NCBI RefSeq assembly: GCF_002215215.1
Contig: NZ_CP018632.1
Location: forward strand, 6,258,501-6,322,500
DNA: 64,000 bases
Reading direction: 5' to 3'
Source of the DNA: Granulosicoccus antarcticus IMCC3135
GTDB lineage: Bacteria; Pseudomonadota; Gammaproteobacteria; Granulosicoccales; Granulosicoccaceae
Of this stretch, positions 34,162-55,618 are shown in pieces (within the stretch, counting starts at the first letter, position 1; every line of letters starts with the position of its first letter). A program made the position numbers and the translations under genes. The notes beneath the pieces were generated by a model. The model was given only the letters and a program-made list of their open reading frames with translations. It made no database searches and had not been told where the DNA came from.

Positions 34162-34602
34162 AATGATGCTCCTGAATAAAGTTGAACGCTTAAGCTTTTC
34201 GATGAGCCGAAACAAGTGCTGACTGTAACGGCTTGATTGCGCGGAACTATACTGTACAGAAGCGACTCGGAAAACCCACGAGCGCACAAAATTCTTATGA
34301 AAACAGCAACTTGAGCGTCAACTACGTAGTTTTTGTAACTTCACTACATCTGGTTATGAAGCCTGTCGACACGTACATGTCAGAGTTATCCTAGGCTTAC
34401 GAACCACCCCCTGTCTGGTATGGTAGTAAAGAGGGGTATTGAGGGAACAAGAAAATTAATTCTCGTAATTTCAATTCATAACCTGTTTTGTCATCAAATC
34501 GACTTTTTTGATGTTATTTACAGGTGCCAGGAGTCAGGAAAACCACAGCGACCGGCCAGTCCGGTCGCTGAGAAAACCTGCCCGGGCAGGCGTTCTGGCC
34601 TC
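34162..34602. other. pckA upstream region with a 12-bp palindrome
   Basis: 441 bases. AACTACGTAGTT at 34320-34331 is a perfect palindrome about 160 bases upstream of the pckA start and is a possible regulator site. The distal part holds the terminator of the OmpA gene (34547-34569). No gene was seen. Confidence 0.4.
34547..34569 (-). terminator. hairpin terminator of the OmpA lipoprotein gene
   Basis: AGCGACCGG and CCGGTCGCT form a perfect 9-bp stem around a 5-base loop, about 35 bases after the stop at 34603. On the minus strand GTGGTTTTCC follows. Confidence 0.7.
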
Positions 34603-35823
34603 TTACTGGAGTACCGAAAACTCTACACGTCGATTGGCAGCTCTGCCCTGCTCCGTCAGATTGGAGGTTCGAGGCTTGGACTCACCAAACGCCTGAGGCT
34701 TGAGACGCGAACCGGATATTCCGGCGTCCACAAGATAGCGAGCGACCGCGATGGCTCTTCGCTTGGACAGTTGCAGATTGGCTGACGCCGCACCTTCGTT
34801 ATCCGTGTGTGCTTCAATAATGACTCGAATGTCCGGATAATCACGCAGTGTTTGCGCCACACCGGCGAGAACGACATTTGCCTCGCTTGTCAGCCTGGCA
34901 GAACCAGCTCGAAAATTGACACCTTCGACCACGCCATCAAAGATAGGACAGCCATCCACTCTGACCGGAGCTCCAGGAGCCGTATCCAGACACTTGTCTT
35001 CGGCATCAGGTACTTTGTCGCCATCCGCATCCGGCGGCGTGATCTTTTCAGGCTTTACCGGCGGCAACTCCTCAACAGGCTCTGGTTCAATCACCGGTAC
35101 CGGAGGTAGCTGATCGACGATCGGACCGACAATTGGCACATCATCCACCGCTGAAGGCGCTACTGGTTGTCCTGTGCTTCGAGGACTGCCATATCGATGT
35201 GAACCGATCCGGTACACCAGACCCAACTGCACATACTTGGCATCAGTTTCGTGTGCCACCAGCTCTGCACGTAGCCCCAGTCCATTATTCAGGCCATATT
35301 CAAGCCCGAGGCCAGCCAGTAGATGTACATCATTGACGCGTTCGAACTCTACGCCACTGGCATCGTTCTCCAAGGCACCCAGACCCAGTCGGCCGAATAC
35401 CGAAAAGCCTTCTCGACGCGCACGATCGTTGGGTTGATTCAACCCGTAGACCAGCCCGCTAACACCAGCGACGGTATAGTCGATGGTACCTGTCGGTTCC
35501 AGCGTCGCCTCACCCAGACTGGCAATATGCCCCTCCACACTGAAACGATTATCAATATCGTAGCCAAGCGTCAGTGAGCCTCCAGCGCCCATGGAGTCAT
35601 CCACCGAGACGCCAGTAACACCACTGGTATCGGGCTCCAGCTGGCTTGCCAGCACCCCTGCACCGACGTAGACCCGATTGCGAAAATCTCTGTTTTCACT
35701 GCTATTTCCAAGCGTACTACAACCACTCAGAACAATAATGCAACCCAGCATAGCGGCAGGAACTGCCGCACGCGAGACTCCTTGTGCACTCCGCTGAGCG
35801 CCTTGTTTGCCAGTTTGATTCAT
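34603..35823 (-). CDS. OmpA-family outer-membrane lipoprotein
   Basis: 406 residues. Signal peptide with lipobox LSGC near residue 35, then an OmpA-like beta barrel (about 50-205, RNRVYVGAGVLASQLEP to YVQLGLVYRIG), a Pro-rich linker with one TSP3-type calcium loop (DADGDKVPDAEDKC), and an OmpA peptidoglycan-binding domain (about 290-405). The last carries EAHTDNEGAASANLQLSKRR, with the Asp and Arg that hold diaminopimelate. It would link the outer membrane to peptidoglycan. Its ATG overlaps the stop of the TSP3 gene by four bases (ATGA), so the two products are made together. Confidence 0.9.
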   Translation of the reverse strand: MNQTGKQGAQRSAQGVSRAAVPAAMLGCIIVLSGCSTLGNSSENRDFRNRVYVGAGVLASQLEPDTSGVTGVSVDDSMGAGGSLTLGYDIDNRFSVEGHIASLGEATLEPTGTIDYTVAGVSGLVYGLNQPNDRARREGFSVFGRLGLGALENDASGVEFERVNDVHLLAGLGLEYGLNNGLGLRAELVAHETDAKYVQLGLVYRIGSHRYGSPRSTGQPVAPSAVDDVPIVGPIVDQLPPVPVIEPEPVEELPPVKPEKITPPDADGDKVPDAEDKCLDTAPGAPVRVDGCPIFDGVVEGVNFRAGSARLTSEANVVLAGVAQTLRDYPDIRVIIEAHTDNEGAASANLQLSKRRAIAVARYLVDAGISGSRLKPQAFGESKPRTSNLTEQGRAANRRVEFSVLQ

Positions 35824-38800
35824 GAGCGCGAACCGGTCTCCTTGCGACGACGCAATCTGGCAATCAGCATCATGATGCTGCCGCCGAACAACAGAGGCAG
35901 CAGCGGGTCAGTTCCAGTGCTCTCGCCACCCGTGGCAATACTGCAGCCAAAACCAGAACCACCAAGGCCTGTTTCTATAACACCATTGGATGCCAGACCT
36001 TGCTGCACATCTGGAACTCCGTTGCCATCCGCATCAGGCAGATCGACGGGCACGCCCTGCGATGGAGACTGACTATCATCGGCAAACGGGCCTGCAAAAC
36101 CATTACCGTCAGAATCCGGATCAGAGCTGTCGACCACGCCATCACCATCGGTATCTGCCCCAGTCACAAAATCAGCATCCATGGAATCATCGATACTGTC
36201 ATTGTCGACATCGTTGCCACCGGTCGAATCGACATCGTTGACGTCAGGGATACCGTCACCATCGGTATCAGTCAACTGATCGTTACGACTGTCCTGGTTG
36301 ACATCCTCACCACCGGCTTCACTCAAGTCGCTGATACCGTCACCATCACTGTCCAGGTCGATGAAATTAGGAATGCCATCACCATCAATGTCCGCAGGCG
36401 CTGACAGATCACCAGCCTGGACATCGTCCAGTCCATCACCGTTGGCATCCACGAAGTTGTCTACCCGGCCATCGTTGTCCTGATCACTGCCAGTACCCCA
36501 ATTTTCGAATCGATCAGACAGACCGTCCTGATCACTATCCAGATCACGCACATCGGGTATGCGGTCCATATCGGTATCACGCAATGTCAGCACATCGTTT
36601 GCCAGCGAATCGTCAACGCCGTCGCCATTACTGTCGGTAAACTCATCTACACGTCCGTCAGCATTCGCATCGACAAGCCCGACTTCCTGCATGTCCGTCA
36701 ACCCATCATTGTCTGAATCCAGATCCAGCATATCGGCCACACCGTCCTGATCCGTATCCAGCACAGATTCACCAGAACCTTGCGCTAGTCCGAACTGATC
36801 AACCTGCGCTGAGGAGGCCAGACGACCGCTAGCCGAAACAGCAGTGCGCCCCGCCTCCAGAGAATCAAACAAACCATCGTTATCACTGTCCAGATCCCGA
36901 TAGTCTGGAATCCCGTCGCTGTCCGTATCCCGGCCAGTCTCTACCGCATCAAGTACACCATCGTTGTCACTATCGCGATCCAGACGATCAATCACCCCAT
37001 CGCTGTCGCTGTCGGCGCTACCTTCCACCAGGTCCGAGATGCCATCGTTGTCATCGTCAGTGTCCTGAGAGTCGGGCTGACCGTCGCCGTCATGGTCAGC
37101 ACTCGGTGAAGGCTCTGGCTCTACCGGTGTACTGCCATCAGTGAACTGAACCGAACTGTCCTGAAAATCTGCTGTACCGTCACCATTGGTATCAACTGGT
37201 TGTGCTGTATCCGGGCCCACTTCCTCCGCATCACTGACACCGTCATTGTCAGAATCCTGCTCTCGATAATCTCCGGCACCATCGCCATCGCTATCTGTTG
37301 GATTGGATGCACTACCGGTGTTCTCGACGCTATCAGGAATGCCATCTGCATCCGAGTCGACATCACGGTAATCCGGCTGGCCGTCCTGGTCTGTATCAAA
37401 ACGTGGCAAAGCGCTTGCCTGCACAGCATCATCAACACCCTTGTCATCTTCGTCCACGAAACCATCGATACGACCATCACCGTCAGCATCGACACCACCG
37501 GCTTCCACAAGATCGAAAATCCCATCGCCATCGCTATCGATATCCATATAGTCCGGCGTACCGTCACCATCAGTATCGAACAGAGGCTGACTGATGGTGC
37601 CTGAATCATCACTGGACTCGATCACATTGGCAATGCCGTTGGCACCCACGTTGATGCGAATATCAATGGCACCGATATCAACAGGATCCAGAGTTGCAAT
37701 AGTCGCCGCATCGAGACGCCCTTCGATCAGATCCAGGATGCCGTCGTTGTCACTGTCCAGGTCATACCCATCCGGGGTACCGTCACCATCTGAATCGCGG
37801 GAGTTCGCATCGGCAACACCATCGCCATTCGCATCGATGATGCCTTCTTCGGTGTCCAGAATAGAGTCGTTGTCATCGTCCAGATCGTCCTGATTGACAA
37901 TGCCATCGGCATCACGGTCCGGATGAACATCGTCATTGGCAGCAAGCTGATCACCATCGTTGGTATCACCACCGTTGGTATCGCCACCAGCACTGCCATC
38001 GCTGTTTCCATCCGTACTACCGCCGCTGACGCTAGCCGAGTCACGATAATCGGGAATACCATCGCCATCGGTATCTGCCGGTGACTGCACATCGTCACCA
38101 ACTTCCTGACGATCACCAATGCCATCGCCATCACTGTCCGATTCACGGTAGTCACCGGCGCCATCACCATCTGTGTCGCGAGGAGCGCTGGGATTGCTAC
38201 CGGCTTCTACCTGATCAGGGATGGTGTCGCCATCGGAATCCAGATCACGAAAATCCAGGATGGAGTCACCATCCGTATCGAACAATGGCAACGCGGTTGA
38301 CTGGACGGTGTCATCCACGCCCTTGCCATCTTCATCATAGAAACCATCCAGCCGGCCATCGGTATCACTGTCAACACCGCCTGCTTCTATCAGGTCGAAG
38401 ATGCCGTCATTGTCGCTGTCAAGATCGCGAAAATCGGCAATACCATCCTGGTCGGTATCGGGCAGAGAGAATTTCATCTGACCTGAATCAGGACTGGTTT
38501 CTATTTCATCGGCAATACCATTCTGACCGACCGGAATATTGATATCGATTGCGCCATTGGGAACCCGATCCAGTGCAGTCACCGAATCACGGGACAGACG
38601 GGCTTCCATGTTATCCAGAATACCGTCGTTGTCACTGTCCAGATCAAGCGCATCAGGCGCACCGTCATTGTCGGTATCGACAGAACTGCCGTCGAGAAAC
38701 CCATCGCCATCATTGTCAACAGCACCTTCATCGCTATCCAGGATGCCGTCGTTATCGTCATCCAGATCGTCCTGGTTGCGGATACCATCGCCGTCTGAAT

Positions 38801-39017
38801 CAGGTCCATTCACAGCCGAACCCTGTGCCGCAACACCGGCAATTTCATTCAGGGTAAAAGGGTTGGTGTCGTCTTCTGCAGCTATGCCGACTGCAGAAAA
38901 AGAACCCAGTACCAGGCCAATGGCCAGCGTCAAGGTGCTGCGAGTCAGAGCTGATCCGGTTGTTGGCTCAGGTACACGGAGGTTCTTCAAACCAGAGTGC
39001 GAAGGCTTCTTCATCAT
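35820..39017 (-). CDS. TSP3-repeat protein with C-terminal Cys/TM/Arg sorting-type tail
   Basis: 1,065 residues. Signal peptide (about 25-46, ending VGIAA), then almost entirely thrombospondin-type-3 calcium loops (DxDxDGxxD) to about residue 1000. The first 600 residues are an internal duplication: DNDGILDNMEARLS...GAIDINIPVGQNGIAD recurs as DNDGILDLIEGRLD...GAIDIRINVGANGIAN. The tail GLGGSGFGCSIATGG, DPLLPLLFGGSIMMLIA and RLRRRK has the tripartite Cys, hydrophobic, Arg form of JDVT-CTERM/MYXO-CTERM-type signals, which a dedicated protease recognises; no such protease is in the window. Predicted surface-exposed calcium-stiffened rod. It is coupled to the OmpA lipoprotein downstream by ATGA overlap. 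Confidence 0.85.
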   Translation of the reverse strand: MMKKPSHSGLKNLRVPEPTTGSALTRSTLTLAIGLVLGSFSAVGIAAEDDTNPFTLNEIAGVAAQGSAVNGPDSDGDGIRNQDDLDDDNDGILDSDEGAVDNDGDGFLDGSSVDTDNDGAPDALDLDSDNDGILDNMEARLSRDSVTALDRVPNGAIDINIPVGQNGIADEIETSPDSGQMKFSLPDTDQDGIADFRDLDSDNDGIFDLIEAGGVDSDTDGRLDGFYDEDGKGVDDTVQSTALPLFDTDGDSILDFRDLDSDGDTIPDQVEAGSNPSAPRDTDGDGAGDYRESDSDGDGIGDRQEVGDDVQSPADTDGDGIPDYRDSASVSGGSTDGNSDGSAGGDTNGGDTNDGDQLAANDDVHPDRDADGIVNQDDLDDDNDSILDTEEGIIDANGDGVADANSRDSDGDGTPDGYDLDSDNDGILDLIEGRLDAATIATLDPVDIGAIDIRINVGANGIANVIESSDDSGTISQPLFDTDGDGTPDYMDIDSDGDGIFDLVEAGGVDADGDGRIDGFVDEDDKGVDDAVQASALPRFDTDQDGQPDYRDVDSDADGIPDSVENTGSASNPTDSDGDGAGDYREQDSDNDGVSDAEEVGPDTAQPVDTNGDGTADFQDSSVQFTDGSTPVEPEPSPSADHDGDGQPDSQDTDDDNDGISDLVEGSADSDSDGVIDRLDRDSDNDGVLDAVETGRDTDSDGIPDYRDLDSDNDGLFDSLEAGRTAVSASGRLASSAQVDQFGLAQGSGESVLDTDQDGVADMLDLDSDNDGLTDMQEVGLVDANADGRVDEFTDSNGDGVDDSLANDVLTLRDTDMDRIPDVRDLDSDQDGLSDRFENWGTGSDQDNDGRVDNFVDANGDGLDDVQAGDLSAPADIDGDGIPNFIDLDSDGDGISDLSEAGGEDVNQDSRNDQLTDTDGDGIPDVNDVDSTGGNDVDNDSIDDSMDADFVTGADTDGDGVVDSSDPDSDGNGFAGPFADDSQSPSQGVPVDLPDADGNGVPDVQQGLASNGVIETGLGGSGFGCSIATGGESTGTDPLLPLLFGGSIMMLIARLRRRKETGSRS

Positions 39018-39192
39018 GATATTTGACTGACCGCCTGGCGGTCCCTGTTAGCGATTCCTTAATCCCCGGAAACCACTTTAATTCCGGCACTTTGGATAAG
39101 ATAACAGGTTACTCGGTCGTTTAGCACGACCTCCATCACGTCTGTCTGGCTAGTTTACAAGGCGTTGAATTACCACACACTTTAGTCGCGCA

Positions 39193-41007
39193 CTACGGGT
39201 TTCGCAATATGCGAATCTCAACACGTCGGTTGGTTGCACGATCCGCCGGTGTCATATTTTGCACCAAGGGCAATAACTCACCATAACCCTCGGCCTCAAG
39301 CCGATCTGGCACGACACCCTCGCCCGCAAGGAAGGACGCAACCGCTTGAGCACGCTGTTTTGACAGCCTTAAATTAATCTGAGCATCACCACTATTATCA
39401 GTGTGTGCCATGACAGCAATGCGAATCCGGGGATTGTTACGCATTGTAGCAATGACGCTACCCAGAGAATTCCGGGCGTTAGCTGACAATTCACTGGAGC
39501 CATCTGGAAAGTCAAGTCCGTCAACAACTCCCGATATACTGACCCCCGGCGCAAAGCCTGGCTCTGGCAACGGCATGATAGGTATTCTTGATCGTGCCGT
39601 CGTATCAACAGACATAGCCGACTGCAAGTCTGGCTCCTCGCTGACAACAGCTTTGGCTTCTGCCGTCTTGAGCGAGCTCTTTTCACGTGTTGGCGAAGCA
39701 CTCACGACATCCTGAGTATCAACCAGACCATCGCGCTGCGAATCGCGCTGTCGCGGGTCACTGACAACAATGACTCGCCTCACTGCAAGCATGGGCTGAA
39801 CGGACAGCTGACCCGCATCCTGATCGGGCAATGTGACAACATCCACTCGGCGATTTTGCAGACGGCCCACCGCTGTACTGTTGCTACCCAACGGTTCTGT
39901 CTCACCCATACCAACAGCCTGCAACTGTCGTTCATGCACACCGCGACTCTGCAGATACTGCGAGACGACCTGAGCACGTCCGGTAGACAAATTCATGTTC
40001 ATGTCGCTCTTGCCTTGAGAATCTGTATGGGCTCGCACTTGTACTCGCGACTCTGGAAAAGCCAGCAGGGTTTCTGCAACCTCATTGAGCTGAGCGCGTG
40101 CAGATGGCGACAGCCAGCTGGATCCACTGCGAAAGCGCACATCGCTCAGCACGGCATCAAACAAACCACAGCCCGTATTATCAACAGTTATATGCGCGAT
40201 CGTTTCGGGGCAATCGTCTCGCGAATCGAGCACACCATCGGCATCTGCATCGCCGCGACGCATAGCGGGACGCCAACGATCGGCCATTGACAACGCCATT
40301 GCCTCGATCTCGGGGCCGGCTGTATTAGCCGCCCCCAGAGAGGGCTCGGCAGCACCAGCTACCATCTGCCCACGACTTGATGCCTGAACACCGAAACGGT
40401 AGACCGCGCCCAGCCCGATATAGGACACATCGGCATCGAAACGGGTGATATCAGCCCGCAAACCCAGACCGTTGGAAAGTCCGTATTCGGCACCTAGCCC
40501 CAGCACAGGGCCTGACTCACTGTTTTCCAGTTCAACAATATCCGAAGACCGTTTCAACGAGCCATACCCCAGCCGGGCGTAGGCACTCAACCCTTCTCGC
40601 CGTGAACGCATTTGCGATCCGCTGAGACCATAGATCAGCGCACTGACGGATGCCGAGGTGTGATCAACCGCGCTCTGTGATTCACGCAATTGCGACTCCC
40701 CCAGAATCGAGGTATCCAGCTCCACGGCTACTCTGTCATGCAGATCGTAGCCGAGCCTCAGCTGGGTCGTCATGGCATTGGAGCTCTCTACCTCGAGAGC
40801 CTCACTCGACGACAGATGAGAGCCACCCAGGGAGGCCCCTGCGTACAGACGACTGCGAAAGTCGCTGGAGCCAGATGGCAGTTGCAAAGAGGGCTGACCT
40901 GACGGCATTACACAGCCCGTCAGGACACTACCAATCAGCACAGCAAGAATCGAACGATACCTGCCGGGTGCTGCATTCAATCTGCGCGAATTTCGAGGAA
41001 AATTCAT
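39193..41007 (-). CDS. OmpA-family lipoprotein with two OmpA domains
   Basis: 604 residues from ATG 41007 (AGGA about ten bases upstream). Lipobox LTGC near residue 31; beta barrel at about 50-205 (RSRLYAGASLGGSHLS to YIGLGAVYRFG). First OmpA domain at about 270-390: FRSGSSWLSP, RAHTDSQGKSDMNMNLSTGRAQ and NRRVDV. A linker of about 100 residues follows, then a second OmpA domain at about 490-604: FPDGSSELSA, MAHTDNSGDAQINLRLSKQRAQ and NRRVEI. Both domains keep the peptidoglycan-binding Asp and Arg. Two such domains in one chain are uncommon and could grip two glycan strands. It lies in line with the TSP3 gene, 175 bases upstream. Confidence 0.88.
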   Translation of the reverse strand: MNFPRNSRRLNAAPGRYRSILAVLIGSVLTGCVMPSGQPSLQLPSGSSDFRSRLYAGASLGGSHLSSSEALEVESSNAMTTQLRLGYDLHDRVAVELDTSILGESQLRESQSAVDHTSASVSALIYGLSGSQMRSRREGLSAYARLGYGSLKRSSDIVELENSESGPVLGLGAEYGLSNGLGLRADITRFDADVSYIGLGAVYRFGVQASSRGQMVAGAAEPSLGAANTAGPEIEAMALSMADRWRPAMRRGDADADGVLDSRDDCPETIAHITVDNTGCGLFDAVLSDVRFRSGSSWLSPSARAQLNEVAETLLAFPESRVQVRAHTDSQGKSDMNMNLSTGRAQVVSQYLQSRGVHERQLQAVGMGETEPLGSNSTAVGRLQNRRVDVVTLPDQDAGQLSVQPMLAVRRVIVVSDPRQRDSQRDGLVDTQDVVSASPTREKSSLKTAEAKAVVSEEPDLQSAMSVDTTARSRIPIMPLPEPGFAPGVSISGVVDGLDFPDGSSELSANARNSLGSVIATMRNNPRIRIAVMAHTDNSGDAQINLRLSKQRAQAVASFLAGEGVVPDRLEAEGYGELLPLVQNMTPADRATNRRVEIRILRNP

Positions 41008-41154
41008 GAATAATCTGTTCCTGCCAATCAGTCGGCGTTTGCAGAACAGCAAAAGCAAGTTCCAAACCGCAGGGGCACAATCAGTGACGGCTACGTGGTG
41101 CTTCTGTAGAACAGTCCTCGAAACAGGGTATTTCTTTGCCTACCCTCACACAAT

Positions 41155-42303
41155 TTACAAAACCCGCAACTCCACACGATTATTCAAACGACGACCACCT
41201 GGAGTGAAATTATCGGCACGCGGCTGTATCGAGCCAAATGCACGTGCTTTCAGGCGTTTTACAGCCACGCCCTGCGCCACCAGAAAGCGGGCAACGGCGA
41301 CAGCACGTTCACGCGACAGAGTTTGAGCACGATCAGGATCTGTGTAGGTCTGCGTGTGAACACGAATTTCCACAAGCAGTTCCGGATAAAGATTCAGAGA
41401 GCCGGCCAGACGTGAAAGCAGAGTTTTGCCCACTGCCGTCAGCGTGGTTGTTTCACCTTCAAACTCCACACCTTGCTGCACACCACTGAACAAGGCACAA
41501 CCTTGAGAGTTCAAGGGCTCACCTGCCGCAGGCACAGCACAGGAGCTGACGGATGGACCACTCAATGGGGCATTATTACCCGCGACTACCGCTTCCTGGA
41601 TAGGTGCGGCCGCAGGTGCGGCCGCAGGTACGGGTTCTGGAACCAGCTCCGGCTCGGGCTTGCTAACTGTCGGCTTTACAACCGCTGGACGAGGTACTGC
41701 AGCAGGTGTTGCCCGTGAACCGTTTCTGGTACGACTTTGCAGCCCACCAGGTCGCCAATAGACCGATGCCATGGCAACTTGTGCGTCACCGTCAAAGCTT
41801 GTCAATTCGCCACGAACGCCCCAGCTGGAACCCACCGGCCATTGAATACCGGCTCCCAGCCAAAGCGCGGTATTGTCCTTTTCCGCCAATTGCACATCTG
41901 AATCATTCGTGATCTTGTTGAGTCCGAATCGCACATAACCAGACCATCCATCCTGTCGATGCGCAAGCTCGGTATCCCCCAGTACATAAAGAACCCCACC
42001 CAGCGACAGGGCAGAATAATCGATGGATTCGCCGGCTGAGAGCTCTGCCTTGCCAAGATCGGTGTACGCAATCTCGATTCCCAGCCTGTCATTGATGTCC
42101 CTTCCCAGGTACAGACCAGCGGCTGTCGAACTTTCCTTGTCCAACGAGAAGTCAGATCCATCGGTGTCTGGCGTCAGTCGTGAGATACCGGCACCCGCAC
42201 CCGCATACCATTTGCCTTGCTGAGCAAGGAGAGGTGATGCAGAAAAGGCGCTAATGCCAAGAACGACGACGCAAGCAATATGACGGGACACGGAATTGGA
42301 CAT
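41155..42303 (-). CDS. OmpA-family outer-membrane protein with altered peptidoglycan motif
   Basis: 382 residues. Sec signal peptide ending SPLLA, without a lipobox. OmpA-like barrel at about 30-190, then a Pro/Ala linker (about 195-250) with PEPELVPEPVPAAAPAAAP and a C-terminal OmpA domain. In that domain the usual HTDNxG is HTQTYTDPDRAQ, so the Asp that contacts diaminopimelate is replaced by Gln, although LSRERA and NNRVEL remain. It may bind peptidoglycan weakly or not at all. It lies 147 bases upstream of the double-OmpA gene on the same strand and is the first gene of the envelope cluster. Confidence 0.87.
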   Translation of the reverse strand: MSNSVSRHIACVVVLGISAFSASPLLAQQGKWYAGAGAGISRLTPDTDGSDFSLDKESSTAAGLYLGRDINDRLGIEIAYTDLGKAELSAGESIDYSALSLGGVLYVLGDTELAHRQDGWSGYVRFGLNKITNDSDVQLAEKDNTALWLGAGIQWPVGSSWGVRGELTSFDGDAQVAMASVYWRPGGLQSRTRNGSRATPAAVPRPAVVKPTVSKPEPELVPEPVPAAAPAAAPIQEAVVAGNNAPLSGPSVSSCAVPAAGEPLNSQGCALFSGVQQGVEFEGETTTLTAVGKTLLSRLAGSLNLYPELLVEIRVHTQTYTDPDRAQTLSRERAVAVARFLVAQGVAVKRLKARAFGSIQPRADNFTPGGRRLNNRVELRVL

Positions 42304-44929: not shown

Positions 44930-47900
44930 ATGTCAAACTGCAAGCACGGAACGCGAGTTATACTCGCAACGTATATTGCTAAATATATCGCCAGTATATT
45001 TAGCCTCATACGAATCATTGCACCCAGACCTCGCTACTTACGAGTATTGCTGGCAGCCTTTGTCCTTTCGTCAATTTCCTCGTTTGCCATGGCAATCGAC
45101 ACCGATGGTGATGGCATAGAAAACATCAAGGATCTGGATGATGACAATGACGGCATCCTGGATATTGATGAGATTAGTTGCGGGGTCTCGGGAGAGGTGG
45201 CTTGGGAGCACAATGACAACAATGGGATGTCGTTAAATGCCAGTGTCAGCTCGAGCATATCGAGCGTTGTTTCCAACACCACCGATATCAGTTTTGGTAG
45301 TGGCTTCATAGCCCCCACCAGTACTTACGAGCACATACTCAATGGTGCTAACGAAACGACATTAGTCGGAGCAAGATCAAACGGTGAATATGCCGAAGTC
45401 GGATTTACAATAAACGGACCCGCGTATTTCACCGCCACCCAGAATGGAATGGTAGTCGGCGCTGCTAATGGTGGCCAAGGCAGTGCTGCTGGTGACTATG
45501 AAATAGCGGCAGAAATATCCAGTGATAACTTTGCCACCTCGGTTTTACTGTATGACGACGGCTACATTGCCACACCTGGAACGCAATATTCTGTTAGTCG
45601 CAATTCATTCAGCCCGTACCTGATGACCTCAGGTACTGCTTACAAAGTGAGAATGTACCTCTTTAACGAGCAGAACTTCTACGCAGGCTCAGGCACTGTC
45701 ACATTCGATGATTTCAAATTGGCCATTAATGCGAGTTGCGCTACTGACTCGGATAATGACTCCGTTCAGAACTCCGAGGACATAGATTCGGACAATGACG
45801 GCATCCCTGACAATATTGAAGGTCAGGAATCTGCCAGCTATATAGCCCCCCTGAATCTGGATACCGATGGTGATGGGATCGACGATGCCTATGATGAAGA
45901 CAACGGTGGCACCCCCGTCAGCATACCCAATACCGATGCAAACGCAGCCGACAGCGCTGATTACCTGGATACCGACAGTGATGATGATGGTGTCCTCGAC
46001 TCCATTGAAGGCTTTGATGCCAATGGCGATGGCATTGCAGATACCCTACCCGCTCCGGGCAATGCAGATACCGACGGTGATGGTCTGAACGACAACTATG
46101 ACACTGTCGTTGGCCCTGCTCCCGGAAACTCCATTGGCTCCAACGCCCCCTTGCAAAACACAGACGGTGCCTTGGATGAGCCCGATTGGCGTGATACCGA
46201 TGATGACGATGACCTGGCACTCACCTCTGCAGAAGATACCAACAGCAACGCCAACCTGGCAGATGATGATGCGGATGCCGATAGCAAACCGAACTATCTT
46301 GAATCAAGTACTGCCGATGCTGATGGCGACGGCACGAAAGACCAGAGCGATGCGAATGATGCCGACGCCTGCATCCCCTCAGCCTTTGCCACCGGTTGCA
46401 CCACTGATACTGATGGAGACGGCACCGCTGATAGCGTAGAGACATCAACCACTGACACTGATAACGATGGCACGCCGGACTATCAGGAGTCATCAAGCGA
46501 CGATGCTGATGGCGACGGCACTGCGGATCAGACTGACCCCGAAGATGCCAACGCTTGCGTTCCTTCCACATTTGGTAATGGCTGTACCATCGATACTGAC
46601 GGTGATGGAAGCCCAGACAGTGTTGAAACCGCTGCTGCTGATACAGACAACGATGGCACACCGGACTATCAAGAATCATCAAGCGCCGATGCCGATGGCG
46701 ACGGCACTACGGATCAGAATGACCTCGAAGATGCCAATGCGTGTGTTCCTTCGGCATTCGGCAATGGTTGTGCCACCGATACCGACGGTGATGGAAGCCC
46801 GGACAGCGTCGAAACGGCTGGCGCTGATTCGGACGGCGATGGCACTCCGGACTACCAGGAGTCATCAAGCGCCGATACCGATGGTGACGGCACCACTGAC
46901 CAGAATGATGCTGCCAACTCAGATGCCTGTATTCCTTCCGCATTCGGTAATAACTGCACCACCGATACTGATGGTGATGGAAGCCCGGACAGCGTAGAGA
47001 CGGAGACAACTGACACCGATGGCGATAGCACTCCAGATTACCAAGAGTCATCTTCAGCCGATGCAGATGGTGATGGCATCACCGACCAGAATGACGCCGC
47101 TGATGCCAATGCCTGCATTCCGTCTGCATTCGGTACTGGCTGCGCTACCGATACCGATGGTGACGGAAGCCCTGATAGTGTAGAAACAGAGACGACTGAT
47201 ACAGACGGTGATACCAAGCCAGATTACCTGGAATCTTCGATCGACGATGCCGATAATGATGGCACCATGGACCAGGCTGATTCGGACGATAGCGATGCCT
47301 GCATTCCTTCCGCATTCGGTAATGGCTGTACCACTGATACTGATGGTGATGGCTCACCTGACAGTGTAGAAACTGAAGCCGCTGATAGCGACAGTGACGG
47401 CACGCCGGATTATCAGGAGTCTTCCACAGTGGATGCCGATGCCGATGGTATTTTCGCCCAGAACGATCCGGACGAAGCCGATGCCTGCATCCCTTCCGCA
47501 TTCGGTACTGGCTGCGCCACTGACACTGACGGTGACGGATCCCCTGACAGTGTCGAAACTGAAACCGCTGATACCGACAATGACGGCACACCGGACTATC
47601 AGGAGTCATCCGCAGTGGATGCCGATGCCGATGGCACTTTCGCCCAGAACGACCCGGATGAAGCTGATGTCTGCATCCCTTCTGCCTTTGGCACTGGCTG
47701 TACAACCGATACCGACAACGATGGCACGCCTGACAGCGTTGAAACAGAAACGGCCGATGCGGACAATGACGGCACGCCGGATTACCAGGAATCATCAACA
47801 GACGATCTGGACAACGACGGCACGCCGGATCAAAGTGATTCAGACGGTACGAATGTTTGCATTCCCTCCACCTTCGGCACGGGCTGTACTGCCGATACCG

Positions 47901-50900
47901 ATGGCGATGGTGCACCCGATAGTGCGGAAACCGAAGCTGCTGATACCGACGGCGATACCAAACCGGATTACCAGGAATCTTCAACCGATGATGCCGATAG
48001 TGATGGCACTACCGATCAGAATGATCCAGCCGATGCAGATGCCTGTATTCCTTCAGCGTTTGGAAATGGTTGCACCACGGATACTGACGCCGATGGCACT
48101 CCTGATAGCATAGAAACAGAGACTGCCGATACCGACAACGATGGCACTCCGGATTATCAGGAATCCTCCTCCGACGATGCGGATGCCGATGGCAGTGCTG
48201 CACAGAACGACCCGGACGAGTCTGACGTCTGCATCCCTTCTGCCTTTGGCACTGGCTGTACAACCGATACCGACAACGATGGCACGCCTGACAGCGTTGA
48301 AACAGAAACGGCCGATGCGGACAATGACGGCACGCCGGATTACCAGGAATCATCAACAGACGATCTGGACAACGACGGCACGCCGGATCAAAGTGATTCA
48401 GACGGTACGAATGTTTGCATTCCCTCCACCTTCGGCACGGGCTGTACTGCCGATACCGATGGCGATGCTATTCCCGACAATGCAGAAACCCAGAACGCTG
48501 ACACGGACAGTGACGGCAAGCCTGATTATCAGGAATCATCGATCAATGATTTTGATAATGATGGCACTACCGACCAGAATGATCCAGCTGATGGCAATGC
48601 CTGCATCCCTTCCGCGTTCGGCAATGGTTGTACGACTGATACCGACAATGACGGTACGCCTGACAGCGTAGAGACCGAAGCGGCGGATAGCGACAGTGAC
48701 GGCACTCCGGATTACCAGGAATCTTCAATCGACGATACCGATTCAGATGGCACAACCGTGCAGAATGATCCGGACGAGACTGATGCCTGTATTCCCACCG
48801 CATTTGGCAATGGTTGTACAACGGATACTGACGGCGATGGCACTCCTGATAGCATAGAAACAGAGACTGCCGATACCGACAATGACGGCACACCTGACTA
48901 TCAGGAATCCTCCATAGATGATTCTGATAACGACGGCACGACCGATCAGAATGACTCAGACGGTGTTAATGTCTGCGAGCCTTCAGAATTTGGTAATGGC
49001 TGCTCAATCGATACCGATGGTGATGGTATCCCTGACAGTGTAGAAACCGAAGCCGCTGATACAGACAACGACAGCAAGCCTGATTATCAGGAGTCATCAA
49101 TTGATGATGCCGATAACGATGGTACAAGCGATCAGAATGATCCGGCTGATGCCGATGCTTGTATTCCTTCAGCATTCGGTAACGGTTGTACGACCGACAC
49201 TGATAACGACGGCACACCTGACAGTGTAGAAACCTCGTCCACTGATACGGACAACGACAGCAAGCCTGATTATCAGGAGTCATCAATTGATGATGCCGAT
49301 AACGATGGTACAAGCGATCAGAATGATCCGGCTGATGCCGATGCTTGTATTCCTTCAGCATTCGGTAACGGTTGTACCACTGATACTGATGGCGATGGTA
49401 CGCCTGACAGTGTAGAGACCGAGGCAGCTGACAGCGACAATGACGGCACACCTGACTACCAGGAGTCTTCAACCACGGATGCTGATAGTGATGGTACTTC
49501 CGCACTGAACGATCCGGATGAGGCTGATGCCTGTATCCCCTCCTCGTTCGGCAACGGTTGTACGATTGACAGCGACGACGATGGTACGCCTGACAGTGTC
49601 GAAACAGAAACGGCCGATACGGACAGTGATGGCAAACCGGATTATCAGGAATCAGCAACGGCCGATGCGGATGCGGATGGCACCACAGACTTGAATGACC
49701 CTGCTGATGCCGATGCCTGTATTCCGTCAGCATTCGGTAACGGTTGTACCACTGATACTGATGGTGACGGTACGCCTGACAGCGTAGAGACAGAAACGGC
49801 CGATACGGACAGTGACGGCAAGCCGGATTATCAGGAATCAGCGACGGCCGATGCGGATGCAGATGGCACCACAGACCTGAATGACCCTGCTGATGCCGAT
49901 GCCTGTATTCCTTCGGCATTCGGTAACGGTTGTACCACTGATACTGACGGTGACGGTACGCCTGACAGTGTAGAGACCGAGGCAGCTGACAGCGACAATG
50001 ACGGCACACCTGACTACCAGGAGTCTTCAACCACGGATGCTGATAGTGATGGTACTTCCGCACTGAACGACCCGGACGAGGCTGATGCCTGTATCCCCTC
50101 CTCCTTCGGCAACGGTTGTACGATTGACAGCGACGGTGATGGTACGCCTGACAGCGTCGAGACCGAAGCGGCGGATAGCGACAATGATGGCACACCTGAT
50201 TATCAGGAATCCTCAACAACAGATGCCGATAGTGATGGCACCTCCGCATTGAATGATCCGGACGAGGCTGATGCCTGCATCCCTTCCAACTTCGGTAACG
50301 GTTGTACCACTGATACTGACGGTGACGGTACGCCTGACAGTGTAGAAACTGAAACGGCCGATACAGACAGTGATGGCAAGCCGGATTACCAGGAATCAGC
50401 GACTGCCGATACGGATGCAGATGGCACCACGGATCTGAATGACCCGGCCGATACTGATGCTTGTATTCCATCAGCATTCGGTAACGGTTGTACCACTGAT
50501 ACTGACGGTGACGGTACGCCTGACAGTGTAGAGACAGAAACGGCCGATACGGACAGTGACGGCAAGCCGGATTATCAGGAATCAGCGACGGCCGATGCGG
50601 ATGCAGATGGCACCACAGACCTGAATGACCCTGCTGATGCCGATGCCTGTATTCCTTCGGCATTCGGTAACGGTTGTACCACTGATACTGATGGCGATGG
50701 TACGCCTGACAGCGTAGAGACCGAGGCAGCTGACAGCGACAATGACGGCACACCTGACTACCAGGAGTCTTCAACCACGGATGCTGATAGTGATGGTACT
50801 TCCGCACTGAACGATCCAGATGAAACAGATGCCTGCATTCCTTCCAACTTCGGCAACGGCTGTACAACGGACACCGACGGTGATGGTACGCCTGACAGTG

Positions 50901-53900
50901 TCGAAACAGAAACGGCCGATACAGACAGTGATGGCAAACCGGATTATCAGGAATCAGCGACTGCCGATGCGGATGCTGATGGCACCGCCGACCTGTTAGA
51001 CCCAGCGGATGCAGATATCTGTATCCCTTCAGCCTTCGCAGCTGGCTGCACAACGGACTCTGATGTTGATGGCATTCCTGACAGCGTGGAAACAGAGACA
51101 AATGATACGGATGTAGACGGTACACCTGATTATCTGGATATCGACAGCGATAACGATGGAATTCCTGACCATTCAGAAACCAACGCCATGGGCGTATTGA
51201 TCGATACCGACACTGACGGCACACCGGATTATCGGGATCTGGATTCGGACAATGACACCATTCTGGATGCCATCGAAGATAATACTACCCCGCTCCTTGC
51301 GTATAGTGATTCAGACGGAGATGGTGTTGATGATGCCATTGATGTTGACCTCACTGGTGGTAACGATGTCAATGCAAACGGTGTAGATGATGCCTATGAG
51401 CCGACTGATACAGATGCTGACGGAACACCGGATCATCGCGATACCGATAGTGACGATGACGGGATGGACGATGTATTTGAAGGCGTCGTCGATACCGACG
51501 GTGATGGTGCATTCGACTACACCGATACCGACTCCGATGCTGATGGCATTGCAGATGCCGACGAAGGTCTGAACGATACAGACAACGATGGCATACGCGA
51601 CTCGCTTGAACAGGACTCGGACAACGATGGCATAGGCGACCTGAGCGAAGGTACTGCTGATGCAGATAATGATGGTGTGCCTAACTACCAGGATATCGAT
51701 TCTGACGGCGATGGCATTCCGGACTCACTGGAAGGCGCTGTCGACACCGACAGCGATGGCATCCCCGACTTTCTGGACACTGACAGCGACGCTGACAGCA
51801 TTCCGGATTCACTGGAAGCCGGTGCAGACCCTGCCAACCCACTGGATAGCGACAATGACAACGCCCCCGACCATCTGGATCTGGATTCCGATGGCGATGG
51901 CATCACTGACAGTGTTGAAGCCGGTTCGAATGGTTCAGACCCGGTTGATACCGACAACGATTCCATTCCCGATTATCTGGAACTGGATTCTGACGGCGAT
52001 GGCATCAGCGATGCAAATGAAGGCCTGCTCGACAGCGATGGCGATGGCATCCCCGACACCGTGGATCCGGATGACAACAATGACGGTATTCCTGATGACA
52101 AAGCCGGCAGTGGTGACCTGGATGGCGATGGCATTGTGAACACCCTTGATGATGATATCGACAATGATGGAATCAGCAACGCTACAGAGAAGATGATCGA
52201 TACGGATGGGGACGGCCTTGCCAACTTCATGGATCTTGATTCGGACAATGACGGCATCCCTGATGCGGTTGAATCCGTCGGCGATCTTGATGGCGACGGA
52301 GCTGCAAACTATCGTGATCTGGACAGTGATGGTGATGGTATTGCCGATGCGGAAGAAGCAGGCGATGATCCGACCTCCCCTGTCGATACCGATGGCAATG
52401 CAAGTCCGAACTACCTGGATACCGATTCGGATGGTGACGGTATTCCTGACAACATCGAAGGCGTCGTGGATAGCGACAACGACTCGAAGCCGAACTACGT
52501 AGACACGGATTCGGATGGTGACTCCATACCTGACAGCATTGAGAGTGGCATCGACACTGATGGTGACGGAGCTTCCGACTATGTGGATCTGGATGCAGAC
52601 AACGATGGCATCGCCGACTCGGTAGAAGCCGGCAGCGACCCGCTGAATCCGGTAAATTCAGACAATGAAGGCGTCAGTGATTATCGCGATACCGATAGTG
52701 ATAACGACGGTATTGCAGATCAGGATGAAGGTGTCATCGACAGCGATGGAGATGGCCTGCCAGATTCAACCGACCCTGATGCCAACAATGACGGCATTGC
52801 CGATGCAGACTTGGGCAACGGTGATACTGACGGCGATGGAGTACCGGATTATCTGGATAGCGATATCGATGGTGACGGCATTGCCAACATCAGCGAAGCT
52901 TTCGAGGGTGATGTACAGAGCGATTCGGATAACGATGGTATCCCCAACTTCCTCGATCTGGATTCTGATGGCGATGGCATACCCGATATTCTGGAGAATG
53001 TTCTGGATGCCGATGGTGATGGCACCGCTGACTTTCTTGATCTGGACAGTGACGGTGACGGCATTGCAGACGCTCTGGAAGCCGGCCCTGATGCAAGCAT
53101 GCCAGTCGATTCTGACAACGATGGCATACCTGACTACCGTGATGAGGATGCAGACGGTGACTCACTCATAGACAGCCTTGAACAGGCCGGAGATATCGAC
53201 AATGACGGCATCCCCAACTATCTGGACTCCGACTCGGACAATGACGGAATTTCAGACGAAGAGGAAGGTAGTCTCGATACCGATGGAGACGGCATCGTCG
53301 ATGCTCAGGATCTGGACTCGGATGGCGATGGCAACAGTGATGCCGAGGAAGGCACCGGCGACAGCGATGGCGATGGTATACCCGACTCACGCGACTCTGA
53401 CTCTGATAATGACGGAATCAGCGATGTGCTTGAAGGTAGTGCCGATACCGATGGTGATGGTGTGATAGACGCACTCGACAAGGACACTGACAACGACGGC
53501 ATTCTGGATGCGCTTGAGGTGGGTAAAAATCCTCTCAATCCATTAGATACAGATCATGACGGTGTACCGGATTATCGTGATCTGGACTCTGACAATGATG
53601 GCCTGAGCGATACGTTTGAAGCTGGCGGTCTGGACGATGACGGTAATGGCCGAATTGACAACTTTGTCGACAACAACAACGATGGTCTGGATGACGGCGT
53701 TGCAGCAATACCACTACCTGTGGACGATTTTGACAAGGACAGCATTCCTGACTTTCGTGATCTGGATAGCGACAATGACGGCTTGTCAGACCTTCTGGAA
53801 ACTTCTGGAGGCGCCATCGACAACGACAGAGACGGTAAGGTGGATAACTTTGTCGACGGCAATGGCGACGGACTGGATGATGGAATGGCATTGGCACCAG

Positions 53901-55618
53901 CCCGTATCAGTGACGTTGACGAAGATGGACAATCCAATCACCTGGATCTGGATACCGACAACGACGGTGTCATGGATCTGGTGGAAGCCGGCGGCAAGGA
54001 TGAGAATGGCGACGGCATTGTAGACTCCATGGCTGATAGCGACGATGACGGTATTCCCGACCTGGTCGATGTTGATGTCACTGGCGGTGTTGACATCGAT
54101 AACGATGGTATTGATGACAGTGCGGATGCCAGCTTCGTCAATGAGGATGATACCGATGGTGATGGTGTAATCGATTCACGTGATCCGGATATCGACGGTG
54201 ACGGCTTTGCCAACTACCTGCAATCAGACGGTCAACCCTTACTAGGGGCTGCATTGCCCGATACCGATGGCGATGGCATTCCTGATGTCAGCGAGGCCAA
54301 CGAGACGGGTGAATGGCACACGGGCTTGTCCGGCAGTGGTTGCAGTATCTCCTCCTCCCCTGCTCCGGGTCAGCGCACTATCGATCCGGTACTACCATTA
54401 CTGGCACTCGCGGCACTGATGTCTCTGGCACTGCGCCAGAGGCGTGCTTCACGCCGCTGCCTGTCAGTCGTGGCGGCTTCCTGCCTGGTCAGTAGCTGCG
54501 CAACGGGGCTGAATAAACCAAGCCCTGAACCCGCAGAGTTGCACGATGGTGATGCTAAAACCGAATCCATCGAACATTACGGCAGTCATCACAGCCTCGA
54601 ACGTCACCTCTATGTCGGCATTGGTCTGGGCATGAGTAAACTGGAACCTGAAGCACGGGGTCTGGCTAATGCCCGTGTTGATGATTCCAGTCATGTCGGA
54701 GGCCAGGTAACCCTGGGTATGGATGTCAACAAATGGGTGTCAGGCGAAGTCCACTATGCCGATCTGGGTAGTGCCGGAGTCACTCCGGGAGGCCGCATCA
54801 GTTACAACATAGCCGGTGCCAGCGCACTGTTCTATGCAGGTAAAAATCGACACGATTGGCGCCGTCAGGGGTTTACTGCCTACACCCGTGTCGGTATCGG
54901 CTTTCTGAACAACAGCGCTGTTGGAGAAGTGAATATCAACAATGACAAGGGTTCCCACCTGCTCTTTGGTGTCGGACTCGAATACGCCGCTACCAAGGGC
55001 ATCGGGCTGCGTGCAGAGTACATCTCCTTTGACGAGGACGTCAGCTACGCGCAATTGGCACTGATCTACCGGACTGGACGACGCGAAGAGCACCCTGCTG
55101 CATTGCCACCGGTTGTCGAAAAACCAGCTGAAATTGAAGTGCTGACAACCACAGCGGTTGTCAGCCAGCCTTTAGTCGATGGAGATAAAGACGGTATCAT
55201 CGATGACGTTGATGCCTGCCCGGGCTCAGCTGTCGGGTCTGCTGTTGATGCGACCGGCTGTATGCATTTTGCGGGCGTTATTGAAGGTATCAATTTTCAA
55301 GCAGGCTCGGCGATTCTGACATCGCCTTCCATCGTCAAACTGACACAGGCTGTCACGACTTTACAGAGTCATCCTGATGTAATCCTCAGCATATCGTCGC
55401 ATTCCGACAACTATGGCCCTTCAGAGTCGAACCTGCATTTGTCGATCGAACGTGCACAATCAGTCAAGGATTTTCTGGTCGACGGTGGTATTGACGCAGA
55501 ACGAATCACCGTCATTGCTCATGGAGAAACTCAGCCAATCGCCAGTAATGATACGTCTGAGGGACGACTCAAGAACCGCCGGGTAGATATTGTCATGGAG
55601 ACACCACTGAAGCCATAG
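44930..55618 (+). CDS. giant 3,562-residue TSP3-repeat protein fused to an OmpA-family module
   Basis: One uninterrupted frame. Order: long basic N-region and signal peptide (cleavage near residue 55, FAMA); short TSP3 (57-82); a beta-rich domain of about 185 residues flanked by Cys, not recognised; TSP3 loops (270-450); 25 tandem 62-residue units each with CIPSAFGNGC (450-2040); classic TSP3 loops (DSDGDGIPD, 2040-3120). A sorting-type tail then follows: GSGCS with Cys3138, DPVLPLLALAALMSLAL, RQRRASRR. The frame continues directly into a lipoprotein-like signal (VSSC, Cys3190), an OmpA barrel (about 3215-3375), one TSP3 loop, and an OmpA peptidoglycan domain with SSHSDN and NRRVDI (3445-3555). 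The paralogous locus at 34603-39017 has the two parts as separate overlapping genes. An internal ATG at 54419 could give a separate OmpA lipoprotein, but no ribosome site is visible there. Function unknown; likely a calcium-dependent surface or trans-envelope fibre. Confidence 0.88.
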   Translation: MSNCKHGTRVILATYIAKYIASIFSLIRIIAPRPRYLRVLLAAFVLSSISSFAMAIDTDGDGIENIKDLDDDNDGILDIDEISCGVSGEVAWEHNDNNGMSLNASVSSSISSVVSNTTDISFGSGFIAPTSTYEHILNGANETTLVGARSNGEYAEVGFTINGPAYFTATQNGMVVGAANGGQGSAAGDYEIAAEISSDNFATSVLLYDDGYIATPGTQYSVSRNSFSPYLMTSGTAYKVRMYLFNEQNFYAGSGTVTFDDFKLAINASCATDSDNDSVQNSEDIDSDNDGIPDNIEGQESASYIAPLNLDTDGDGIDDAYDEDNGGTPVSIPNTDANAADSADYLDTDSDDDGVLDSIEGFDANGDGIADTLPAPGNADTDGDGLNDNYDTVVGPAPGNSIGSNAPLQNTDGALDEPDWRDTDDDDDLALTSAEDTNSNANLADDDADADSKPNYLESSTADADGDGTKDQSDANDADACIPSAFATGCTTDTDGDGTADSVETSTTDTDNDGTPDYQESSSDDADGDGTADQTDPEDANACVPSTFGNGCTIDTDGDGSPDSVETAAADTDNDGTPDYQESSSADADGDGTTDQNDLEDANACVPSAFGNGCATDTDGDGSPDSVETAGADSDGDGTPDYQESSSADTDGDGTTDQNDAANSDACIPSAFGNNCTTDTDGDGSPDSVETETTDTDGDSTPDYQESSSADADGDGITDQNDAADANACIPSAFGTGCATDTDGDGSPDSVETETTDTDGDTKPDYLESSIDDADNDGTMDQADSDDSDACIPSAFGNGCTTDTDGDGSPDSVETEAADSDSDGTPDYQESSTVDADADGIFAQNDPDEADACIPSAFGTGCATDTDGDGSPDSVETETADTDNDGTPDYQESSAVDADADGTFAQNDPDEADVCIPSAFGTGCTTDTDNDGTPDSVETETADADNDGTPDYQESSTDDLDNDGTPDQSDSDGTNVCIPSTFGTGCTADTDGDGAPDSAETEAADTDGDTKPDYQESSTDDADSDGTTDQNDPADADACIPSAFGNGCTTDTDADGTPDSIETETADTDNDGTPDYQESSSDDADADGSAAQNDPDESDVCIPSAFGTGCTTDTDNDGTPDSVETETADADNDGTPDYQESSTDDLDNDGTPDQSDSDGTNVCIPSTFGTGCTADTDGDAIPDNAETQNADTDSDGKPDYQESSINDFDNDGTTDQNDPADGNACIPSAFGNGCTTDTDNDGTPDSVETEAADSDSDGTPDYQESSIDDTDSDGTTVQNDPDETDACIPTAFGNGCTTDTDGDGTPDSIETETADTDNDGTPDYQESSIDDSDNDGTTDQNDSDGVNVCEPSEFGNGCSIDTDGDGIPDSVETEAADTDNDSKPDYQESSIDDADNDGTSDQNDPADADACIPSAFGNGCTTDTDNDGTPDSVETSSTDTDNDSKPDYQESSIDDADNDGTSDQNDPADADACIPSAFGNGCTTDTDGDGTPDSVETEAADSDNDGTPDYQESSTTDADSDGTSALNDPDEADACIPSSFGNGCTIDSDDDGTPDSVETETADTDSDGKPDYQESATADADADGTTDLNDPADADACIPSAFGNGCTTDTDGDGTPDSVETETADTDSDGKPDYQESATADADADGTTDLNDPADADACIPSAFGNGCTTDTDGDGTPDSVETEAADSDNDGTPDYQESSTTDADSDGTSALNDPDEADACIPSSFGNGCTIDSDGDGTPDSVETEAADSDNDGTPDYQESSTTDADSDGTSALNDPDEADACIPSNFGNGCTTDTDGDGTPDSVETETADTDSDGKPDYQESATADTDADGTTDLNDPADTDACIPSAFGNGCTTDTDGDGTPDSVETETADTDSDGKPDYQESATADADADGTTDLNDPADADACIPSAFGNGCTTDTDGDGTPDSVETEAADSDNDGTPDYQESSTTDADSDGTSALNDPDETDACIPSNFGNGCTTDTDGDGTPDSVETETADTDSDGKPDYQESATADADADGTADLLDPADADICIPSAFAAGCTTDSDVDGIPDSVETETNDTDVDGTPDYLDIDSDNDGIPDHSETNAMGVLIDTDTDGTPDYRDLDSDNDTILDAIEDNTTPLLAYSDSDGDGVDDAIDVDLTGGNDVNANGVDDAYEPTDTDADGTPDHRDTDSDDDGMDDVFEGVVDTDGDGAFDYTDTDSDADGIADADEGLNDTDNDGIRDSLEQDSDNDGIGDLSEGTADADNDGVPNYQDIDSDGDGIPDSLEGAVDTDSDGIPDFLDTDSDADSIPDSLEAGADPANPLDSDNDNAPDHLDLDSDGDGITDSVEAGSNGSDPVDTDNDSIPDYLELDSDGDGISDANEGLLDSDGDGIPDTVDPDDNNDGIPDDKAGSGDLDGDGIVNTLDDDIDNDGISNATEKMIDTDGDGLANFMDLDSDNDGIPDAVESVGDLDGDGAANYRDLDSDGDGIADAEEAGDDPTSPVDTDGNASPNYLDTDSDGDGIPDNIEGVVDSDNDSKPNYVDTDSDGDSIPDSIESGIDTDGDGASDYVDLDADNDGIADSVEAGSDPLNPVNSDNEGVSDYRDTDSDNDGIADQDEGVIDSDGDGLPDSTDPDANNDGIADADLGNGDTDGDGVPDYLDSDIDGDGIANISEAFEGDVQSDSDNDGIPNFLDLDSDGDGIPDILENVLDADGDGTADFLDLDSDGDGIADALEAGPDASMPVDSDNDGIPDYRDEDADGDSLIDSLEQAGDIDNDGIPNYLDSDSDNDGISDEEEGSLDTDGDGIVDAQDLDSDGDGNSDAEEGTGDSDGDGIPDSRDSDSDNDGISDVLEGSADTDGDGVIDALDKDTDNDGILDALEVGKNPLNPLDTDHDGVPDYRDLDSDNDGLSDTFEAGGLDDDGNGRIDNFVDNNNDGLDDGVAAIPLPVDDFDKDSIPDFRDLDSDNDGLSDLLETSGGAIDNDRDGKVDNFVDGNGDGLDDGMALAPARISDVDEDGQSNHLDLDTDNDGVMDLVEAGGKDENGDGIVDSMADSDDDGIPDLVDVDVTGGVDIDNDGIDDSADASFVNEDDTDGDGVIDSRDPDIDGDGFANYLQSDGQPLLGAALPDTDGDGIPDVSEANETGEWHTGLSGSGCSISSSPAPGQRTIDPVLPLLALAALMSLALRQRRASRRCLSVVAASCLVSSCATGLNKPSPEPAELHDGDAKTESIEHYGSHHSLERHLYVGIGLGMSKLEPEARGLANARVDDSSHVGGQVTLGMDVNKWVSGEVHYADLGSAGVTPGGRISYNIAGASALFYAGKNRHDWRRQGFTAYTRVGIGFLNNSAVGEVNINNDKGSHLLFGVGLEYAATKGIGLRAEYISFDEDVSYAQLALIYRTGRREEHPAALPPVVEKPAEIEVLTTTAVVSQPLVDGDKDGIIDDVDACPGSAVGSAVDATGCMHFAGVIEGINFQAGSAILTSPSIVKLTQAVTTLQSHPDVILSISSHSDNYGPSESNLHLSIERAQSVKDFLVDGGIDAERITVIAHGETQPIASNDTSEGRLKNRRVDIVMETPLKP
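46270..51049 (+). repeat. tandem array of 186-bp coding repeats (25 full units plus one partial)
   Basis: The last Cys codon of the first CIPSAF...GC motif ends at 46399 and that of the last at 51049, exactly 25 x 186 bases apart, so no net insertion or deletion has occurred. The 62-residue unit is TTDTDGDGTPDSVETEAADS..., ...DYQESS..., ...ACIPSAFGNGC. Some blocks are identical in DNA: 47671-47909 equals 48229-48467 (239 bases, three units apart). Others repeat one, three or four units apart. This shows recent unequal recombination. Confidence 0.93.

Follow-up and report, generated by a model that had tools for sequence, protein, structure and literature searches.

A fused adhesin-OmpA frame of Granulosicoccus antarcticus with an internal sorting tail and an internal lipoprotein signal: a probable precursor of two envelope proteins

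Introduction

Among described systems, the layout treated here is approached by MXAN_5598 of Myxococcus xanthus, in which an adhesin region, an internal MYXO-CTERM, a barrel and an OmpA domain follow one another and for which processing of the N-terminal portion has been proposed (Guo, Haft, Wall 2025, PMC11980579). According to that paper, the myxosortase MrtX cuts MYXO-CTERM in a Cys-dependent manner, at its Cys, with prior lipidation and T2SS delivery being proposed, and internal sorting tags are proposed to be functional (PMC11980579). Also in myxobacteria, TraA and TraB, encoded by two genes, act at a ratio of 1:1 (PMC12045341). The JDVT-CTERM/MrtJ system (NF033191, NF033192), in the form in which it has been described, consists of one MrtJ and one neighbouring target that bears a terminal tag.

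The window analysed here is a stretch of 64,000 nucleotides of the Granulosicoccus antarcticus IMCC3135 genome (NZ_CP018632.1, positions 6,258,501 to 6,322,500), to which coordinates without a prefix refer. It holds a giant frame in which a sorting tail and a lipoprotein signal both lie inside the encoded protein, as well as a paralogous locus in which the corresponding parts are separate genes.

Results

Positions 44930-55618 of the plus strand translate as one open reading frame that runs through 3,562 codons without interruption by a stop, as the first-pass annotation had reported, and the 3,562-aa product comprises a signal peptide, a TSP3 stalk, a JDVT-CTERM tail, an internal lipoprotein signal, a barrel and an OmpA domain. 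The N-terminal signal peptide, assigned by eye, would occupy residues 1-55 (45094 being its last base and 44930 its first) and end between AMA and ID; the stalk includes 25 copies of a TSP3-like tandem repeat of 186 bp (62 aa), with two cysteines per unit, at 46315-50985 on the same strand. The junction between stalk and OmpA part reads GSGC(3138)SI...DPVLPLLALAALMSLALRQRRASRR, then CLSVVAASCLVSSC(3190), then the barrel and the OmpA domain. Its first element is the sorting tail at 54329-54445, composed of GSGC(3138)SI, a hydrophobic helix and an Arg cluster; the basic linker RQRRASRR (54434-54457) is at once the end of this tail and the n-region of the second signal, whose h-region CLSVVAASCLVSS, followed by the lipobox Cys3190 (54458-54499), is short, with 13 residues and two cysteines among them. 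The internal bacterial-lipoprotein signal is thus complete in basic n-region, h-region and lipobox Cys, and lipidation is predicted. The codons of Cys3138 (54341-54343) and Cys3190 (54497-54499) are found where they had been placed before.

Downstream, an eight-strand outer-membrane barrel is recognised at 54605-55072 by Pfam, by an AlphaFold model and by a Foldseek match to OmpA, and a peptidoglycan-binding OmpA domain (PF00691) with the conserved D and R residues lies at 55295-55579, both on the plus strand. The model shows eight strands and an OmpA-type domain, and Foldseek matches it to E. coli OmpA and to peptidoglycan-binding domains; as modelled, the OmpA part is a member of the OmpA family with an eight-strand barrel and a peptidoglycan-binding domain. 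A TraB identity was considered and rejected, since this part scores 69 bits against the TraB profile NF033763, whose cut-off is 700.

Against the NF033191 profile the tail scores 28.6 bits, above the curated cut-off of 27, and it keeps the JDVT-CTERM order of Cys motif, hydrophobic helix and basic cluster; it is not C-terminal, since the OmpA protein continues for over 380 residues beyond it. Judged by its sequence, the internal tail is predicted to work like a JDVT-CTERM tag. Three fused JDVT proteins occur in the host genome, namely the present one and the products of frames of 5,309 and 5,496 codons. A fourth fusion is encoded there by a frame of 5,469 codons (L174, G000 C1:5936000-5942500): its passenger is Ig- or cadherin-like and is followed by a GlyGly-CTERM at C1:5938967, an internal AxA signal, a barrel and an OmpA domain, so that the layout recurs with a different passenger and tail.

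The intramembrane protease MrtJ is encoded in the host genome at C1:1516440-1516724 (107-108 bits, cut-off 75) with its EExxxR and HxxxN motifs, and it is present in nearly all genomes of the Granulosicoccus family; no MrtJ gene adjoins the fused gene itself. In two genomes of another family (L153:2-2759 and L154) the gene order is TSP3-JDVT, OmpA barrel, MrtJ, with a tail of 39.9 bits, an arrangement that ties MrtJ to the adhesin-OmpA pair, and MrtJ is the candidate cognate protease of the fused JDVT tails. It may be added that the MrtJ gene immediately follows an OmpA-barrel gene in the host (L165:8426-10551, minus strand) and in two relatives (L166, L167), and that the TSP3 part of L153 and L154 also matches the profiles of the myxobacterial proteins CglD and MtsD. 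In families other than that of Granulosicoccus the fused tails mostly lack a Cys and resemble GlyGly-CTERM; rhombosortase exceeds its cut-off in all 14 genomes examined there, compared with 14 out of 30 controls (p = 0.0005 by Fisher's test, uncorrected for kinship). The T2SS component GspD is present.

In a search of 57 relatives many OmpA parts turned out to lie in frames whose length greatly exceeds what an OmpA protein needs. We catalogued 41 distinct junctions of the fused kind, of which 38 belong to the Granulosicoccus family and three to another family; two regular-expression surveys of junctions missed or mis-framed some loci. With further fused junctions read by eye, the layout extends over the Granulosicoccus family and at least six other families of the class. 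A few frames longer than 1,000 aa from the class search proved unrelated, and the myxobacterial genomes reached via the loci contained no giant fused frames. The layout had been taken for an unusual route to an envelope fibre, but it is not rare: it is frequent in its own family and recurs in further families of the Gammaproteobacteria, and an example from Myxococcus has been published.

All 41 catalogued junctions possess two hydrophobic segments with a basic linker between them, the net charge of which ranges from +2 to +8 (mean +5) and is preceded by 60 residues averaging about -12. A lipobox terminates the second segment in 23 junctions, where shuffled sequences would yield 3.0; the remaining junctions finish with an AxA-like signal-peptidase-I site, these cut sites having been assigned by eye. 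The conservation of these features, in the form of either lipobox or AxA, indicates that the second signal still has the properties of a functional signal peptide, in two chemically distinct versions. Within the Granulosicoccus family a subgroup (L064 and L067 in G016, L065 in G020) has lost the tail Cys and kept the lipobox, and its tail is GlyGly-like, clearly so in G016 and less so in G020; this is an apparent switch of sorting protease.

Both organisations, fused and split, were found among relatives. In the window the split form lies on the minus strand and had correctly been recognised as two coupled genes with a four-base overlap: the TSP3 protein (35820-39017) ends in a C-terminal JDVT-type tail of 21.5 bits, below the cut-off of 27, and its stop overlaps, as ATGA, the start of an OmpA-barrel lipoprotein (34603-35823) that has AAGGAG upstream. 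The gene order at this locus is conserved as VTT protein, OmpA barrel (41155-42303), a barrel with two OmpA domains (39193-41058), the TSP3 and OmpA parts, and PEPCK (32536-34287), the last serving as the syntenic anchor; the three genes given here with coordinates are likewise on the minus strand. As a separate matter, 34603-42303 is a cluster of three OmpA-barrel genes beside PEPCK, one of them with two OmpA domains, that is conserved family-wide, and in several relatives (L099-L105) the interval from the fused gene to PEPCK holds further tandem TSP3 and OmpA units, which suggests local duplication.

At the PEPCK syntenic locus the TSP3 and OmpA parts form one frame in most of the relatives that have the locus and two genes in three genomes, the host included; the TSP3 part is absent in three. 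When the label "fused" is mapped onto a tree of 64 OmpA parts, about 11 changes are required, at least six of which well-supported branches make unavoidable; the split OmpA gene of the host falls among fused orthologues. Parsimony favours a fused ancestor for the PEPCK-locus clade, so that the split pair at 34603-39017 is probably derived from a fused form; the first-pass annotation, according to which this locus "keeps" two genes, had implied the opposite polarity. From a DNA alignment of the junctions the ease of this change can be understood: where the orthologue is fused, the Arg cluster that belongs to the sorting tail abuts the second h-region and is common to both signals; where it is split, the junction is longer, the frames are offset and the OmpA gene brings its own ATG and its own n-region. 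An independent start of the OmpA part in relatives, which had been named as a finding that would speak against the fusion, accordingly exists in the split relatives only and is missing from the fused ones.

Discussion

The reading that we favour, at a probability of roughly 70%, is that 44930-55618 encodes one precursor of two envelope proteins, from which an internal membrane hairpin is cut out on both sides to leave adhesin and anchor at 1:1. The tail helix of such a protein stops transfer with the arginines inside and a second signal restarts it, as established topology rules have it. In the proposed sequence of events the TSP3 stalk would be exported by Sec until the JDVT-CTERM helix acts as a stop-transfer segment and leaves the Arg cluster in the cytoplasm, where the same cluster would double as the n-region of the internal second signal peptide, and export of the barrel and OmpA part would resume. 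MrtJ would then cut the tail, probably beside a lipidated Cys3138, LspA would cut before Cys3190 (LepB taking its place at the AxA sites of sister proteins), and the hairpin between both cuts would be removed. The products, in equal numbers, would be a surface-anchored TSP3 fibre and a barrel bound to peptidoglycan via its OmpA domain.

Two cuts are favoured because both signals are kept in 41 of 41 junctions, a signal-peptidase-I variant exists, matching proteases are present and fused and split orthologues interchange. The architecture, the kept signals, the presence of the proteases and the interchange are direct results of this analysis; from the sequences we infer both cuts, the lipidation and the pairing at the surface. 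The earlier suggestion that cleavage at tail and lipobox yields a stoichiometric pair thereby becomes the best-supported reading on the strength of kept signals, proteases and interchange, the cleavage itself staying an expectation.

Other explanations must be weighed against the same evidence. That the protein remains uncut and extends across the envelope, from a TSP3 stalk on the outside to the barrel and OmpA domain at its base, the hairpin staying embedded, would agree with the single uninterrupted frame, and the first-pass annotation had offered a whole protein across the outer membrane as its alternative; we regard this as unlikely, given that both sorting signals and their cut sites are conserved over 41 junctions, that orthologues occur as separate genes, and that a transmembrane helix and a signal peptide would have to sit between the surface part and the outer-membrane barrel. 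The alternation of lipobox and AxA in the second signal, moreover, is meaningful only if the protein is cut there. A cut at one side only, whereby signal peptidase frees the barrel and TSP3 keeps a two-helix anchor, or the reverse, finds a parallel in M. xanthus, where some tagged protein is reported to reach the surface uncut when myxosortase is lacking (PMC11980579); the retention of MrtJ in nearly every genome of the family and a tail that passes its curated cut-off make it a slightly more doubtful proposition still.

The OmpA part might also be an overlapping in-frame gene started within the tail, the fusion product being minor. The junction has a sole in-frame ATG (54419-54421, plus strand; MSLALRQRRASRR...) in the tail helix, 26 codons before the lipobox Cys, and one orthologue (L020) shows a strong GGAGG before the equivalent ATG. 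The Shine-Dalgarno score at 54419, however, is -1.7 against a background mean of -2.5 and a mean of -3.3 for real starts, thus not above background, in a test of low power because even real starts of the genus have weak sites; six fused loci have no junction ATG at all, and the ATG is unconserved among six close orthologues (L027, L054, L055, L057, L058 and L060). Such a start appears about as improbable as an uncut protein. Finally, a sequencing or assembly error by which two genes lost the stop or frameshift that separated them could be imagined from the split state of the in-genome paralogue, but the host genome is a single finished contig and fused frames recur in many separate assemblies, 15 of them at one orthologous locus; this recurrence refutes an error as the source of the fusion, and its probability is negligible.

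Should the two-product precursor be real, it would explain the role of the barrel-OmpA partners of sorted surface proteins, give MrtJ, a protease with a function so far deduced from sequence, a definite class of substrates, and provide natural fused and split orthologues with which sorting tags inside proteins can be tested. To our knowledge, there are hardly any descriptions of bacterial polyproteins that carry two export signals and lose a membrane hairpin by excision. With odds only a little better than even, we further propose a general class of bacterial surface precursors in which an adhesin, an internal sorting tag, an internal signal peptide and an outer-membrane anchor share one chain; the hairpin would be excised by MrtJ or rhombosortase on one side and signal peptidase I or II on the other, fibre and anchor would stand at 1:1, and the class, with an Arg cluster common to both signals, would have arisen or reverted more than once.

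Set beside known systems, the protein has the adhesin, internal sorting tag, barrel and OmpA domain of MXAN_5598 in one frame, and the two are alike in their large adhesin region and Cys-containing internal tag; they differ in that the Myxococcus protein uses MYXO-CTERM and the myxosortase MrtX, not JDVT-CTERM and MrtJ. It is one protein treated in one sentence of a passage that mentions no second signal peptide, and the likeness is to this published description, not to a sequence (PMC11980579). So far as that passage goes, MXAN_5598 is the one internal-tag adhesin-OmpA fusion in print; what is new is the breadth of such fusions, the two protease systems and the interchange of fused and split forms. 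Our case shares with JDVT-CTERM/MrtJ the over-cut-off tail, an MrtJ in the genome and the invariant Cys, and departs from the described form in having several distant targets, three of which bear internal tags. The GlyGly-CTERM/rhombosortase system is comparable in that other families, and one additional host protein, combine this fused layout with GlyGly-like tails; the 44930-55618 protein has a different tail type. PdsO (sortase-associated OmpA-like, TIGR03789) is likewise OmpA-like and has a sorted surface target as its partner, but it belongs to a sortase system and the score is 56 against a cut-off of 152. TraA and TraB resemble the split paralogue, by analogy only, in that the gene of a tagged surface adhesin overlaps the next one, which encodes a barrel, a short TSP3 and OmpA (PMC12045341, PMC11980579); they differ in being two genes and in the variable recognition domain and MYXO-CTERM of TraA, and a fused precursor would fix the 1:1 ratio at which that pair acts.
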